The notes under the pieces are model-generated. The model did no database searches, had not been told where the DNA came from, and saw only the letters and a program-made list of their open reading frames with translations. This document shows positions 29,082 to 33,684 of a DNA stretch of 47,209 bases, piece by piece. How positions within the stretch are numbered: position 1 is the stretch's first letter; every line of letters starts with the position of its first letter. A program made the position numbers and the translations under genes. Origin of the DNA: Chitinophagaceae bacterium (lineage in GTDB: Bacteria > Bacteroidota > Bacteroidia > Chitinophagales > Chitinophagaceae); the NCBI GenBank assembly GCA_947455215.1, contig CANGNA010000030.1, forward strand, positions 1 to 47,209. Direction: 5' to 3'.

Positions 29082-29834
29082 TTATTTATCAGCCGTATAC
29101 AAGCTGGTGATCCCAAACGTAAGCGGCCTTGCTTTGGCATTCTTAAAGCCGCAGCTGGTAAGGATGTTGCAGAAATCCTGGCCCTGCGGAAATGCCTTTA
29201 CAGACTCCGGCAGGTAGGTATATGCCCTGCTGTGCTTAGACACTAGTCGGCCCATTAATGGCAGTATGTATTTAAAATAGAAACCAAACAACTGCTTTAC
29301 CGGGAATGTGGTAGGATGAGAGAATTCCAGTACCACCACCCTGCCGCCCGGGCGCAATACACGGTGCATCTCAGAGAGGCCTGCTGCCAGATTCTCGAAG
29401 TTGCGGGCACCATAGGCACAGGTAACTGCATCAAAGCTGCCAGTCTCAAACGGTATGGCCTCGCTGTCGCCCGTTGTCAGGGTGATCATCTGGCTCAGGC
29501 CATTGTCGGCCACTTTTTTGCGGCCTACTTCCAGCATCTGGTCGGCAATATCAATGCCCTCTATCTTGTTCGGTTTCAGTTGTGCAGCAGCTATGGCCAG
29601 GTCGGCAGTACCGGTGGCCACGTCCAGTATACGCGTCGGATTCACCACACCTGCAGCAGCAATAGCCTTCTTGCGCCAGCCTTTATCTATGCCCATAGAC
29701 AGGAAATGGTTCAGAAAATCGTAGCGCCCGGCTATATTATTGAACATTTCGGCAACCTGGGCCTTCTTATTTAGGTTAGATCCCGCATCAGGAAGTATCT
29801 TTGCGGCTGGATTGATATCATTCGTCGACTGCAT
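29082..29834 (-). CDS. menG: Demethylmenaquinone methyltransferase
   Basis: A 250-residue class-I methyltransferase of the UbiE/MenG family. Marks are VAEMFNNIAGRYDFLNHFLSMGIDKGWRKKAI, RILDVATGTADLAIAAAQL (SAM motif), GIDIADQMLEVGRKKV, DSEAIPFETGSFDAVTCAYGARNF and LRPGGRVVVLEFSHP. It performs the last step of menaquinone synthesis, the main respiratory quinone of this phylum. ATG 29834 (MQSTNDINP) is chosen because the family homology starts shortly after, and a TACTTTTG promoter box ends 5 nt upstream; a longer open frame to 30065 is antisense to engB. Divergent from engB. Confidence 0.96.
   Translation of the reverse strand: MQSTNDINPAAKILPDAGSNLNKKAQVAEMFNNIAGRYDFLNHFLSMGIDKGWRKKAIAAAGVVNPTRILDVATGTADLAIAAAQLKPNKIEGIDIADQMLEVGRKKVADNGLSQMITLTTGDSEAIPFETGSFDAVTCAYGARNFENLAAGLSEMHRVLRPGGRVVVLEFSHPTTFPVKQLFGFYFKYILPLMGRLVSKHSRAYTYLPESVKAFPQGQDFCNILTSCGFKNAKARPLTFGITSLYTADK
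29796..29803 (+). promoter_or_regulatory. -7 element TATCTTTG for engB, inside menG
   Basis: An exact TAnnTTTG match on the plus strand lies 57 nt before ATG 29860 of engB and inside the first codons of menG. It is the nearest consensus box for engB, so the two divergent transcripts would overlap by about 30 nt. Confidence 0.55.
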
Positions 29835-29839
29835 CAATG

Positions 29840-29847
29840 CAAAAGTA
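29840..29847 (-). promoter_or_regulatory. -7 element TACTTTTG of menG
   Basis: An exact TAnnTTTG match on the minus strand, with TTG at 29872-29870 (22-nt spacer), ends 5 nt before ATG 29834. It implies a leader of only 2-3 nt. Confidence 0.7.
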
Positions 29848-29859
29848 CAACCAAACTCA

Positions 29860-30489
29860 ATGGAAATAACAACTGCAAAATATCTTATAAGTAACGAGAG
29901 TGTGGATGGCTGCCCTAAGCCCGACAAGCCGGAATACGCCTTCATAGGCCGCTCTAACGTGGGCAAGAGCAGCCTTATCAATATGCTTACCCGTAATGCC
30001 AAGCTGGCCAAAACATCGGGCACACCGGGCAAAACGGTACTCATCAACCATTTCCTGGTCAACAATGCCTTTTATATCGTCGATCTGCCGGGCTATGGTT
30101 TTGCCAAGCGCTCTATGAGCCAGCGCAAGGAATGGGAGAAAATGATAGAACGCTATCTGAAGGAGCGCACCAACCTGGTGACCGTATTTGTATTGATAGA
30201 CAGCCGCCTGGAGCCCCAGGCATTAGACCTTGCTTTCCTGCGCAAGCTGGGCGAATGGGGCATACCGTTCAACATCGCATTCACTAAGGCCGATAAAAGC
30301 ACACAGCGTGTAGCCCATAAGAATGGCCGCACCTTTATAGAGGCTATGAAGAAAGAATGGGAGTACATACCCCGCAGCTTTATGACAAGTGCCGAGAAAT
30401 TCCTGGGCCGTAAAGAAATGCTGGCCTACATAGCTGAGCTGAACGAAGAATGGGAAATACCAACTCCCGATGCACAACCGGGATCATAA
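29860..30489 (+). CDS. engB: Ribosome biogenesis GTP-binding protein EngB (YsxC/YihA)
   Basis: A 209-residue TRAFAC GTPase. Motifs are YAFIGRSNVGKSSLINML (P-loop), TSGTPGKTVLINHFLV (switch I), FYIVDLPGYGFAK (G3), FTKADKS (G4) and TSAEK (G5). EngB helps assemble the large ribosomal subunit. ATG 29860 is chosen because the family begins here; a longer frame to 29740 runs through the divergent menG start. The menG and engB start codons are 25 bp apart. Confidence 0.97.
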   Translation: MEITTAKYLISNESVDGCPKPDKPEYAFIGRSNVGKSSLINMLTRNAKLAKTSGTPGKTVLINHFLVNNAFYIVDLPGYGFAKRSMSQRKEWEKMIERYLKERTNLVTVFVLIDSRLEPQALDLAFLRKLGEWGIPFNIAFTKADKSTQRVAHKNGRTFIEAMKKEWEYIPRSFMTSAEKFLGRKEMLAYIAELNEEWEIPTPDAQPGS

Positions 30490-30728: not shown

Positions 30729-30799
30729 AGGCTTCAAAATTAATTAAATAATTCATTTTTCCTACAGTGCAGGTCTACTCTTTATAAACGGTTATGTTG

Positions 30800-30866
30800 G
30801 TGCGTACCAGTGCGTACTCTGCGTACCGTGGTACGCATGGTACGCATTGGTACGCATGGTACGCAC
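30800..30866. repeat. GCGTACC hairpin 1
   Basis: Three GCGTAC(C/T) heptamers are followed by four GGTACGC heptamers, each 2-3 nt apart. The ends GTGCGTACC (30800-30808) and GGTACGCAC (30858-30866) pair perfectly. Several pairing registers are possible because the heptamers are interchangeable. Confidence 0.9.
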
Positions 30867-30877
30867 GCTACAACAAC

Positions 30878-30916
30878 AACACTACATTATATAAAATACT
30901 ATAACTCGCAGGTTGG
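30878..30916. repeat. AT-rich linker, copy 1
   Basis: The stretch with ACTACATTA, AAATACTATA and CTCGCAGGTTG recurs at 31164-31213 and 31372-31417 with moderate divergence. In the third copy it stands next to a GCGTACC hairpin without a branched element, so the modules have been shuffled. Confidence 0.7.
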
Positions 30917-30922
30917 TGCCCC

Positions 30923-31046
30923 CGGGGAGTCTCTCGAAGTACCGCGGTGTGAGTTGACGAGGACTCCCCGGTGCCCACATGAGTGACCGGCCCGATATCG
31001 GCTAGTCCTCGCTACCCACCAACCCTCAGCACTGAGAGACTCCCCG
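30923..31046. repeat. Branched palindromic element, copy 1
   Basis: The outer stem is perfect over 13 bp (CGGGGAGTCTCTC 30923-30935 with GAGAGACTCCCCG 31034-31046). Inside are GTG-TGAG/CTCA-g-CAC, TTG/CAA, an 8-bp stem CGAGGACT (30958-30965) with AGTCCTCG (31004-31011), a hairpin CCGGT/ACCGG around CCCACAT, and the 10-bp palindrome CCGATATCGG (30992-31001). Confidence 0.88.
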
Positions 31047-31108
31047 AAGAAAGGAAATAATTCACTTTTCCTACAGTGCAGGTCTACTCTTTATAACCGG
31101 TTATGTTG

Positions 31109-31156
31109 GTGCGTACCAATGCGTACTCTACGTACCACGGTACGCACGGTACGCAC
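31109..31156. repeat. GCGTACC hairpin 2
   Basis: GTGCGTACC (31109-31117) pairs with GGTACGCAC (31148-31156). Two further heptamers lie inside on the left arm and one on the right. It is shorter than hairpin 1 by about two heptamers. Confidence 0.9.
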
Positions 31157-31163
31157 TATATAA

Positions 31164-31213
31164 TAACAACAATACAATACATTACATAAATAATATAACT
31201 CTCAGGCTGAATA
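31164..31213. repeat. AT-rich linker, copy 2
   Basis: Second copy of the linker between a GCGTACC hairpin and the branched element, with ATACATTACATAAATAATATAACTCTCAGG-type sequence; longer and more diverged than copy 1. Confidence 0.65.
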
Positions 31214-31224
31214 TTCTTGTGTCC

Positions 31225-31362
31225 CCGGGAGTCTCTCGAAGTAAGGCTGTGCGGGTTGGCGAGGATTCGCCGGTAACCACATTGGTTATCAACAACAGTA
31301 GCCCACCCTACATCGGCGAGTCCTCCCTACCCACCAAGCCACAGCACTGAGAGACTCCCCCG
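31225..31362. repeat. Branched palindromic element, copy 2
   Basis: Outer stem GGGAGTCTCTC (31227-31237) with GAGAGACTCCC (31349-31359). Inner stems are GCTGTG (31246-31251) with CACAGC (31340-31345), TTGG/CCAA, GAGGATTCGCCG (31261-31272) with CGGCGAGTCCTC (31314-31325), and hairpin GGTAACC/GGTTATC (31272-31290). The layout equals copy 1, while paired bases differ on both sides of two stems. Confidence 0.88.
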
Positions 31363-31371
31363 AAGACAGGA

Positions 31372-31417
31372 AACACTACATTAAAACAAAATACTATACT
31401 GTAATTCTCAGGTTGAA
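31372..31417. repeat. AT-rich linker, copy 3
   Basis: Third copy of the linker, with ACACTACATTA, AAATACTATA and CTCAGGTTGAAT, here upstream of hairpin 3 rather than between a hairpin and a branched element. Confidence 0.65.
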
Positions 31418-31432
31418 TATGCTCTTCTCTCC

Positions 31433-31489
31433 TGCGTACCGGTGCGTACTCTGCGTACTTTGGTACGCACAAGTACGCATGGTACGCAT
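31433..31489. repeat. GCGTACC hairpin 3
   Basis: TGCGTACC (31433-31440) pairs with GGTACGCA (31481-31488). Two GCGTACT heptamers and two (G/A)GTACGC heptamers lie between. It is preceded by CTTCTCTCC, as hairpin 4 is preceded by CTTCTTCC. Confidence 0.88.
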
Positions 31490-31582: not shown

Positions 31583-31646
31583 TGCGTACCACGCGTACCA
31601 ATGCGTACCGTGCGTACTGTGGTACGCATGGTACGCACGGTACGCA
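31583..31646. repeat. GCGTACC hairpin 4
   Basis: TGCGTACC (31583-31590) pairs with GGTACGCA (31639-31646), with four left-arm and three right-arm heptamers. It lies 100 bp upstream of the Omp28-like gene, with no branched element. Confidence 0.88.
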
Positions 31647-31746
31647 TTAAAAACCATATCATCCCACCCAAGCTTTTTTATATAACTTACGTCTTATATA
31701 CGGCAGGGATAGGTATGTGCGCTCGTTAACATCATAACTTACAATC

Positions 31747-33684
31747 ATGAGATCACTCTTTACATCAGTTCTTTTATTGATAACCCTCGGCGCAGCCGCC
31801 CAAACTATCCTGTTCGAGGAAAAGTTCGACGAAATGCCATCGTACTCTATCACCGGCTGGCCTTACCAGTTTACCGGCGTGGTGCCCTGGCAATGTGGGC
31901 AACCCTTTTGGGTGGGGCCTTGCATGCACCCCCTTGGTGCGGCCATGGCTGAGAATGGCACCCTGAATAAGGTAGCCTGTTTTTGCGAATGCGGCATTTC
32001 TGACCCCAACGATAGCAATGTACTCACCTACACGCCCGCTATAGATCTAAGCGCAGACACAGGTGTATGGCTGAGCTACGATTCTTACTTTATTGCTTAT
32101 TCCGATGGCTGGGGAGACACCGAACGGGCAACCGTAGAAATATCTACCGATAACGGCGACACCTGGACCGTAGTAGAAAATGTTGCCCCCAGTGTACCCC
32201 TCGGTGCTTTCGACAAACACTATATCAACCTGCATGCTTACAACCATGCACCCAACATCCGCATAGGGTTCCGCTATGGCGATGATGGCGGACATATGAT
32301 GGGTTGGGCCATAGACAATGTACAGGTATTCATTCCCGCTCACCACGATATTGCCCTCAGATCGGTAACACCCATAGACACCATGCTCAGTTACCTGCAG
32401 GTGGGTAGTGCCCATCAGCACCAGCTGAAAATATTTAATGCAGGGCTCGACACCATACATTCATTTATATTGAATTACAATGACAATGGCGGCATTACCC
32501 ATAGTAGTACTTTCAGTGGATTGAACATCCCGGCGTTTGGCAGTTACACATGTACTTACCCTGCCCCGGACACCGTAAACACCACCGGCAGGCATACCAT
32601 AAGGTTCTGGGCATCGCTTACAGGAGACGGTAACCCGCACAACGATTCTGCCACCACAATTCTTACAGGCGTAGACTTTATGCCTGCCAAAAGGCTGGCC
32701 ATAGAAAGCGGCGAGGGAACATACAATGGCTGGTCGCCACGGAATATGGTGTACCTGCAATCGGTACCGGGGCTGGATATCTCTGCAACATTAATATCTG
32801 TACACGAAGCCGACCCGATGGAAGACACATCGTATCACGACTACCTGTTCTACCCCCACTGGAACTACGTGCCCTATATTTTGTTCGACAGGCGCAAGAG
32901 CATACCGCTGGATAGCTTTTACTACTATATCAATGTGCAAAAAGACTATTTCGGCTTTGCAGATGTACGGCTGACGTCGACCCTGGACGGGGAGAACCTA
33001 ACCGTGACGACCACCGTTACCCCGGCTATAGATTTGCATGGTGATTATAGATTAGCGTTGATACTTACAGAAGATAAAGTAACTAATCTCAACCATTTGT
33101 TCAATCAATACAACAACTACGCCGGCGGTGTACATGGGCCTATGGGTGGCTATGAATCCCTACCTAACCCGGTGCCAGCTGCCGAAATGGAGTACAATTA
33201 TGTAGCCAGGAGGGCAGTACCCGACCCCGACGGAGCTGCCGGGCTGCTGCCACCCAATATGACGACCGGGGAAACATATACCGGAATTATCTCCACAATA
33301 CTGGATCCGCTATGGAATACCGCCAACCTGAAAGCCAAAATATTGCTCATCCGCCATGCCGATTCTGTGATACTGAACAGTGCCGAGGTAAGATCGCCTG
33401 TGGGTATCAGGAATGTGAATGTGGCTACCATCAATGCAGCACTATACCCCAACCCCGCCAACGATAACTGTCACCTGCGCATAGACATGCCACAAAACGA
33501 AACAGTAAGCATACAGGTTACAGACCTTGCCGGGCGCACAGTGCTCAGCATTGCCCCGCAAATCCTTAATACGGGCATTGCCGAACTACCTATAACTACC
33601 GACCGAATGGCCAACGGCATTTACCTGGTGAATATACTGTCGGGCGATAAACACAAAAGCCTGAAACTGGAGGTGATGCACTAA
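31747..33684 (+). CDS. Omp28-related T9SS-secreted protein lacking the redox cysteines
   Basis: A 645-residue protein: signal peptide RSLFTSVLLLITLGAAAQ, a choice-of-anchor J-like jelly roll (about residues 20-200), a linking beta domain, and an Omp28-like thioredoxin-fold domain (about 315-550). The final ~80 residues are a T9SS type A sorting domain (ALYPNPANDNCHLRI, VTDLAGRTVLSI, MANGIYLVNIL). In Omp28 proteins the thioredoxin-like part carries a CGWC motif; here the aligned stretch reads GTYNGWSPRN with Asn327 and Ser330, so redox activity is not expected. Cell-surface or released protein. It overlaps the convergent barrel gene by 4 nt. Confidence 0.85.
   Translation: MRSLFTSVLLLITLGAAAQTILFEEKFDEMPSYSITGWPYQFTGVVPWQCGQPFWVGPCMHPLGAAMAENGTLNKVACFCECGISDPNDSNVLTYTPAIDLSADTGVWLSYDSYFIAYSDGWGDTERATVEISTDNGDTWTVVENVAPSVPLGAFDKHYINLHAYNHAPNIRIGFRYGDDGGHMMGWAIDNVQVFIPAHHDIALRSVTPIDTMLSYLQVGSAHQHQLKIFNAGLDTIHSFILNYNDNGGITHSSTFSGLNIPAFGSYTCTYPAPDTVNTTGRHTIRFWASLTGDGNPHNDSATTILTGVDFMPAKRLAIESGEGTYNGWSPRNMVYLQSVPGLDISATLISVHEADPMEDTSYHDYLFYPHWNYVPYILFDRRKSIPLDSFYYYINVQKDYFGFADVRLTSTLDGENLTVTTTVTPAIDLHGDYRLALILTEDKVTNLNHLFNQYNNYAGGVHGPMGGYESLPNPVPAAEMEYNYVARRAVPDPDGAAGLLPPNMTTGETYTGIISTILDPLWNTANLKAKILLIRHADSVILNSAEVRSPVGIRNVNVATINAALYPNPANDNCHLRIDMPQNETVSIQVTDLAGRTVLSIAPQILNTGIAELPITTDRMANGIYLVNILSGDKHKSLKLEVMH

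Follow-up and report, generated by a model that had tools for sequence, protein, structure and literature searches.

We have followed up two palindromic elements in a stretch of Chitinophagaceae DNA of 47,209 nt (the window, contig C30 of a genome of 4.2 Mb in 118 contigs), and each is very probably a REPIN, that is, two inverted REP hairpins with a short spacer forming a non-autonomous hairpin element of a RAYT (TnpA_REP, HuH/Y1) system. The cognate transposase would most likely be the product of the RAYT gene at C1:100462-101055 in the same genome. By analogy with studied RAYTs, the REPINs would be mobile, the RAYT would bind and cut them, and an unpaired T in the hairpin would have a role in this. 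The elements are a new sequence family within a known kind, and the hairpin design they share with repeats beside related RAYT genes may be undescribed.

Both elements lie within a 1.26 kb intergenic region whose bordering ORFs are both on the + strand. Two covariance models were used in the searches, R1 for the full element and R2 for the half-unit. The features of the region, with REPIN and REP denoting the predicted assignments, are as follows.

29740..30489, + strand: upstream ORF with the GTPase-type motif GRSNVGKSSL (ORF list), which we take to be EngB/YsxC-like; left border of the intergenic region.
30746..30911, + strand: direct-repeat segment S1, which lies to the left of REPIN 1 and recurs at 31055-31213.
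30912..31057, + strand: REPIN copy 1, two inverted half-units (R1 match 30921-31047).
30912-30983, - strand: left half-unit of copy 1 (R2 match).
30922..30971, + strand: left REP hairpin of copy 1, stem CCGGGGAGTC / GACTCCCCGG and loop, with an unpaired T at 30932 and a second stem CTC/GAG (sequence reading, consensus hairpin).
30986-31057, + strand: right half-unit of copy 1 (R2 match).
30998..31047, - strand: right REP hairpin of copy 1, unpaired base 31037, mismatches in the lower stem.
31055..31213, + strand: direct-repeat segment S2, between REPIN 1 and REPIN 2.
31215..31373, + strand: REPIN copy 2, inverted half-units 31215-31285 (-) and 31301-31373 (+) (R1 match 31223-31362; R2 matches).
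31227..31273, + strand: left hairpin (REP) of copy 2, in which T at 31234 is unpaired and the lower stem is imperfect.
31313..31363, - strand: right hairpin (REP) of copy 2, in which base 31352 is unpaired and the lower stem is imperfect.
31747..33684, + strand: downstream ORF of 645 aa (ORF list), right border; its C-terminal end presumably resembles a type IX secretion sorting signal.

A sequence-only reading had described two elements here, at 30923-31046 and 31225-31362, each closed by a long outer stem, and both observations were borne out. The arms of copy 1 (30923-30935 / 31034-31046) are perfectly complementary over 13 nt, and those of copy 2 belong to a 24-nt pair with 79% complementarity. 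The same reading held that inner stems had changed on both sides between the two copies while still pairing, a claim that does not survive an alignment of eight full-length copies. TGAG of copy 1 occupies alignment columns 31-34 and GCTGTG of copy 2 columns 25-30, so that these 5' arms are not the same stem, and between GGACT/AGTCC and GGATTCGCCG/CGGCGAGTCC only one side has changed (C to T), AGTCC being the same in both copies. Covariation in the long-range fold likewise fails to appear, two-sided changes being present in 2 of 39 pairs, in one sequence each, which 177 of 500 shuffles also reach; the RNAalifold covariation term for the eight copies is unfavourable (+1.99). Folding itself is strong on both strands. 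Values of z against dinucleotide shuffles are -4.2 and -7.3 on the + strand, where a few flanking bases were included, and -5.9 and -6.0 on the - strand for copies 1 and 2, respectively, the real fold being equalled by 1 of 200 shuffles for copy 1 on the + strand and by none in the other three tests. An Rfam scan of the whole window returned no family at gathering score.

The concern that two copies are too few to judge covariation was lifted by searches of the genome. The sequence of copy 1 gives 47 matches, many covering one half only, and its left half, when reverse-complemented, aligns with its right half. Thus, a single unit of about 70 nt, present twice in inverted orientation, makes up the element. 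At E<=0.001, R1 detects 10 full-length copies, 8 of which trained it, and R2 detects 59 half-units, 36 of which trained it. Twenty of the 59 half-units make 10 close inverted pairs, the remainder being isolated, grouped in direct arrays or located around the RAYT unit. Among 25 pairs of half-unit neighbours within 1 kb, the order is '-+' in 12, '++' in 9, '+-' in 3 and '--' in 1, the 12 '-+' pairs being the 10 REPINs, the RAYT unit and a deleted RAYT unit. All 10 REPINs therefore have their two REPs in the same '-+' order, inverted so as to make one larger hairpin. When 34 elements (10 REPINs and 24 single half-units) were compared with ORFs of at least 120, 150 and 200 codons, 7, 5 and 4 lay inside, respectively, versus 84, 80 and 70% of random window positions. 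The repeats are palindromic, numerous and largely extragenic, 27-30 of the 34 lying outside ORFs. One direct array (L148, C50:10696-11284) consists of four half-units with start-to-start distances of 173, 171 and 172 nt, and an ORF of at least 200 codons covers the midpoints of all four.

The half-unit folds as a hairpin for which RNAalifold gives TCGGCGAGTCCTC ... GAG-A-GACTCcCCGA; on the other strand this reads as a stem ending in GTC, an unpaired T, CTC ... GAG, and GAC followed by the returning stem. The consensus has a stem of 12-13 bp and a loop of about 27 columns, and 35 of 36 half-units retain the unpaired base, a T when read on the hairpin strand. In these 36 half-units, which are related by descent, 94.2% of cells are paired, 26 cells are changed on both sides and a single cell is changed on one side, to a G-T pair; none of 500 shuffles attains the observed number of paired or two-sided cells or the observed covariation score. 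Two counts weigh against this pattern: only 4 of the 13 pairs carry any two-sided change, which 284 of 500 shuffles reach, and one stem position is mismatched in 17 of the 36 half-units. Support accordingly lies in the two-sided cells and the covariation score and not in the number of pairs that change. The unit with real pair-preserving changes is thus the hairpin of the half-element, not the whole long-range fold. The foot adjoining the stem is [CT]GTC[CT] in 34 of the 36 half-units; the two exceptions are both halves of window copy 1. The GTAG or GT[AG]G foot of canonical REPs is absent from the stem base of the half-units, and this, like the deviating foot of window copy 1, counts against the REPIN reading.

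The RAYT gene (ORF L016 1260-1916) is located on a contig other than that of the window and is bordered by the same repeats, half-units at C1:100391 (-) and C1:101080 (+) standing in inverted orientation on its two sides. Nearby, between half-units C1:99601 and C1:99821, lies a remnant corresponding to RAYT residues 177-198 (77% identical), and this unit, with only the end of the gene left, links the gene to the short elements. Hence the alternative of the sequence-only reading that named a mobile hairpin DNA element is the likely kind, as the repeats are inverted REP-type hairpin pairs which also border a RAYT gene in the same genome. The protein matches the NCBIfam REP-associated tyrosine transposase model NF047646 with E 1.1e-17 and 64.2 bits, which falls short of the curated cut-off of 80 bits; its match to Pfam Y1_Tnp is weak (E 3.4e-4, 21.2 bits, below the cut-off of 23). 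Both shortfalls count against the REPIN reading. The protein contains NHIH and YIHNNP with a HuH-to-Y distance of 82. An AlphaFold2 model of a homologue that is 59% identical to it (L052; mean pLDDT 90.6) has as its best PDB match 4er8, a RAYT bound to a REP hairpin (E 2e-8), which a search by sequence alone finds weakly (E 0.028). The protein thus carries the HuH and Y residues and, as predicted from this model, a Y1 fold like that of 4er8. RAYT-like proteins or fragments are also encoded on C63, C53, C3 and C14, with 27-48% identity over the matched stretches; judged by identity, the C1 gene appears to be the only intact gene of its clade in the genome. The genome also holds another RAYT type (183 aa; L024 1334-2036) with small flanking hairpins of core GTC-TCCT-GAC and varying stems. 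This exact core occurs beside 2 of 19 loci with other Y1/RAYT genes, namely this one and L042, and the GTC..GAC top common to their hairpins and to the half-units suggests a related REP type.

Several REPINs stand between direct copies of the local DNA. In the window, S1 and S2 are identical at 135 of 151 aligned bases (89.4%) and meet both ends of REPIN 1 with offset 0; the two REPINs are themselves 83.5% identical over aligned bases. In total, 4 of the 10 REPINs are placed in this way, the edges of the copies meeting the element (offset 0; 11 nt on one side at C15), with the direct copies about 47-273 nt away. At 400 random window positions used as a control, a score of at least 20 at any offset occurred in 10 cases on the right and 7 on the left, with a maximum of 28. 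The REPIN at C7:45826 (scores 54 and 49) and window copy 1 (56 and 36) exceed this maximum on both sides, C15:11791 (32 and 20) does so on one side and window copy 2 (23 and 22) on neither. When 24 single half-units were examined in this way, 6 had such a copy to the right and 4 to the left, most of them belonging to direct arrays. Flanking direct copies were found at none of the other 6 REPINs, nor at the RAYT unit or the deleted RAYT unit. Among RAYT units of other species (19 loci, two lacking enough flank), none of the 17 whole units has a copy scoring at least 20 on both sides, L097 and L098 having one on the right only. REPINs at junctions of local direct copies of different lengths are seen at L001 352-1011, L002 483-830 and window 30746-31421, and a weaker copy of the end of S2 lies to the right of REPIN 2, at about 31375-31421. 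The junction copies may represent long target duplications or tandem slippage. For the window, a duplication of a segment together with its REPIN, giving rise to both elements, is a fair alternative on the present alignments, in which the two window REPINs share some changes against the other copies.

These direct duplications, at up to 4 of the 10 REPINs, are also what would be expected if the elements were passive repeats, such as terminators, protein-binding sites or slippage arrays, which never transposed. Such an explanation would equally accommodate the several copies in direct arrays (C50, C1) and the largely extragenic location, yet it leaves the dispersal over many contigs and the link to the RAYT gene without an account, and we regard it as quite improbable.

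The REPIN reading extends beyond the source genome, as related RAYTs elsewhere are flanked by hairpins of similar build. A scan of one genome per species gave at least 80 loci with relatives of the RAYT, a Bacteroidota taxon being named in the record title for 73 of the 80 listed. Of 83 loci, 30 passed when filtered by length and by the presence of the HuH and Y motifs, and 27 of the proteins were aligned; the invariance of H and Y in this alignment is partly by choice, because the loci were selected on these motifs. All 27 match the NCBIfam RAYT model at E<=0.001 (irrespective of the 80-bit cut-off), and the HuH-to-Y distance is 81-83 in 27 of the 30 filtered homologues.

Hairpins with a one-base 5' bulge were sought, with no sequence requirement, within 500 nt on each side of the 83 loci. 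They are present in 82 of 154 flanks compared with 7 of 154 after a single shuffle of each flank, these counts including four duplicate or partial loci; of the 82, 58 have GTC before the bulge and 69 have T as the bulged base. In an anchored search, from which the four duplicate or partial loci were dropped, GTC-T and three further pairs were required, together with at least 4 of 5 further outward pairs. Such hairpins occur in 66 of 147 flanks, compared with none in 1470 shuffled flanks and with 6 of 147 when the opposite strand was searched, and the 255 other anchors summed to 72, with the reservation that the loci in these flank counts are related by descent. The outward positions taken one by one are not part of the anchor, and their pairing is therefore an independent test: across 91 GTC-T anchors the first five are Watson-Crick paired in 81, 80, 78, 75 and 74, G-T pairs occupy 8 of 455 cells, and positions 1, 3 and 5 each show all four types of pair. 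Among 63 loci with both flanks, the hairpin is present on both sides in 20, on one side in 17 and on neither in 26. Loci with the hairpin on one side or on neither weigh against the REPIN reading, as does the upstream hairpin counted at L082, which looks like an unrelated long palindrome. The foot beside these other RAYTs is pyrimidine-rich, not GTAG. The flanks of related RAYTs, mostly from Bacteroidota, thus share one design, a free stem ending in GTC, an unpaired T, a second stem and a loop. A subgroup of RAYTs (L064, L073 and L084) has hairpins with GTT and an unpaired A in place of GTC and T. The closest RAYT homologue among the matches listed (L034, G003:C170; 59%) lies amid clustered hairpins whose stem is a different one (GGAGAGTC-T-CCCG), indicating that the stem differs between RAYTs within one genus. 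The exact pattern of the local hairpin has five matches in G003, all in the RAYT cluster, and five in G017, two of them beside the RAYT; wide dispersal is thus evident in the source genome and hardly elsewhere.

The association also holds when approached from the repeats. The sequence-only reading had proposed a search for copies in related genomes, and at E<=0.001 R2 found none in 28 relatives, 10 of them of the same genus. Across 194 other genomes of the family, R2, which was built from repeats of the source genome only, has matches in 13 at E<=1e-4 with stricter filters. The RAYT clade (E<=1e-20) is carried by 8 of these 13 genomes compared with 0 of 13 no-match genomes chosen from those not covered by earlier searches, or 3 of 39 when the 28 relatives are added (Fisher p 0.0002). 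By hand count, 8 of the 19 R2 matches in the eight RAYT-bearing genomes lie within 600 nt of the RAYT. Against the association count the 5 of 13 R2-match genomes, including G117, in which the clade was absent at E<=1e-20, and the three genomes G003, G017 and G019, in which the RAYT is present and R2 has no match. G117 (L170-L172) contains 19 R2 matches, to half-units in which GTC-T hairpins have GTCC-type feet, in the absence of the clade at that threshold; perhaps its RAYT was lost, or its half-units are served by another enzyme.

The same five genomes would be in keeping with the elements being MITE-like relics moved by some other transposase, the association with the RAYT being secondary, as would the inverted ends and the several other Y1/RAYT-type genes in the source genome. 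The position of half-units on both sides of the RAYT gene, the recurrence of the hairpin design beside its relatives in other species and the proximity of 8 of 19 R2 matches to a RAYT make this highly improbable. A structured non-coding RNA, cis-regulatory or trans-acting and kept for its fold, which the sequence-only reading had offered as the other alternative, is the least probable explanation, having in its favour the strong folding on both strands and the branched appearance of the elements, and against it the lack of an Rfam match at gathering score, a long-range fold free of covariation, changed pairs that swap Watson-Crick types with G-U intermediates almost absent (8 of 455 cells beside other RAYTs), the absence of copies from the 10 genomes of the same genus and half-units that also border a transposase gene. 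A structured RNA was therefore rejected as the main reading on the Rfam result, the pattern of pair changes and the missing long-range covariation, and the scarcity of G-U among the changing pairs fits DNA inverted repeats better than RNA.

How RAYTs recognise their own repeats has been partly worked out. The RAYT of E. coli processes single-stranded REP, the GTAG foot being crucial and a bulge in the stem being required for activity (PMC8266576). If the REPINs operate similarly, one DNA strand of each half-unit would fold into a hairpin with GTC/GAC at the end of its lower stem, a 5' unpaired T, a second stem and a loop, preceded in most cases by the foot [CT]GTC[CT] 5' of the stem. The RAYT would read this folded single strand through foot, stem and unpaired base, and its tyrosine would cut next to the hairpin, as proposed from the E. 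coli enzyme. By the same analogy, the marks of recognition would be the unpaired T, the GTC/GAC step and the foot, the stem sequence being the species-specific part. The short REPINs would correspond to the gene-bearing RAYT unit with the gene missing between its two hairpins, the unit in which just the final portion of the gene survives would be an intermediate form, and the inverted pair would have been moved or copied to new extragenic sites. In SELEX with the E. coli protein, bulge positions were selected only moderately (PMC8266576), which counts against a role of the unpaired T. The wider proposition, that a RAYT clade across Bacteroidota reads a free stem with GTC, unpaired T and second stem instead of GTAG and that REPIN insertions leave direct duplications of up to about 270 nt, we consider unlikely as a whole.

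The REPINs resemble the REPIN/REP systems of RAYT groups 2 and 3 (E. coli, Pseudomonas) in their inverted REP pairs, extragenic and dispersed location and repeat-bordered RAYT. They differ in the absence of a GTAG foot, a longer loop and a single unpaired T after GTC in place of an AA/GC mismatch, and the 59 half-units are fewer than the more than 100 copies per genome quoted as usual for REPs (PMC2817692). Another close group is subclass 2.6 of TnpA_Y1, reported from Bacteroidetes in a 2018 survey; its members have the motifs NH[LIV]H and YIH[QN]NP, with HuH and Y a median distance of 82 apart, and are flanked by 'atypical', weaker structures which lack GT[AG]G and have copies elsewhere in the genome (PMC6006769). 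The RAYT found here agrees in NHIH, the distance of 82, YIHNNP and its Bacteroidota origin; at the 'WQ' motif of the subclass, most members of its clade have F at the W position and few have W. The kind of element is therefore on record in the 'atypical' structures of that survey (PMC6006769). Thus, the earlier remark that no described element has these ends may be true of the sequence family and is untrue of the kind to which it belongs. In the main-text passages of the survey (PMC6006769), which lists the structures in a supplementary table, and in the titles and abstract openings of the related literature, no statement of the GTC-T design was found.

CGTC-tagged REPs, also reported from Bacteroidetes, share the [CT]GTC foot and occur mostly as inverted (head-to-head) dimers (PMC3733652). 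They have stems of 8-9 bp almost always starting with AT, loops of 4-5 nt and no known transposase (PMC3733652). Membership in this group was rejected: the tag fits, whereas the stem of 12-13 bp, the loop of about 27 columns and the attached RAYT do not. IS200/IS605 elements and their derivatives have the HuH/Y1 fold and subterminal single-strand hairpins with a 5' guide in common with the system described here (PMC6006769), from which they differ in that the two ends of a REPIN are inverted copies of one hairpin; the RAYT reaches 17.9 bits with the IS200 family model, far below the cut-off of 55. RAYTs have been described as domesticated single-strand-DNA transposases (PMC8266576).

The shared design, in which GTC, an unpaired T and two stems are kept while the lower stem varies freely, is readable beside dozens of RAYT genes and thus offers a direct, testable rule for recognition and for the co-evolution of RAYT and REP. 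It also allows such repeats to be annotated as what they are and not mistaken for structured RNAs.

The region around the window REPINs contains a second type of repeat. Four arrays of palindromic units (TGCGTACC / GGTACGCA) are located at 30801-30866, 31110-31156, 31433-31489 and 31583-31647, and the pattern GGTACGCANGGTACGCA occurs six times genome-wide, five times in the window and once beside another REPIN (C15).
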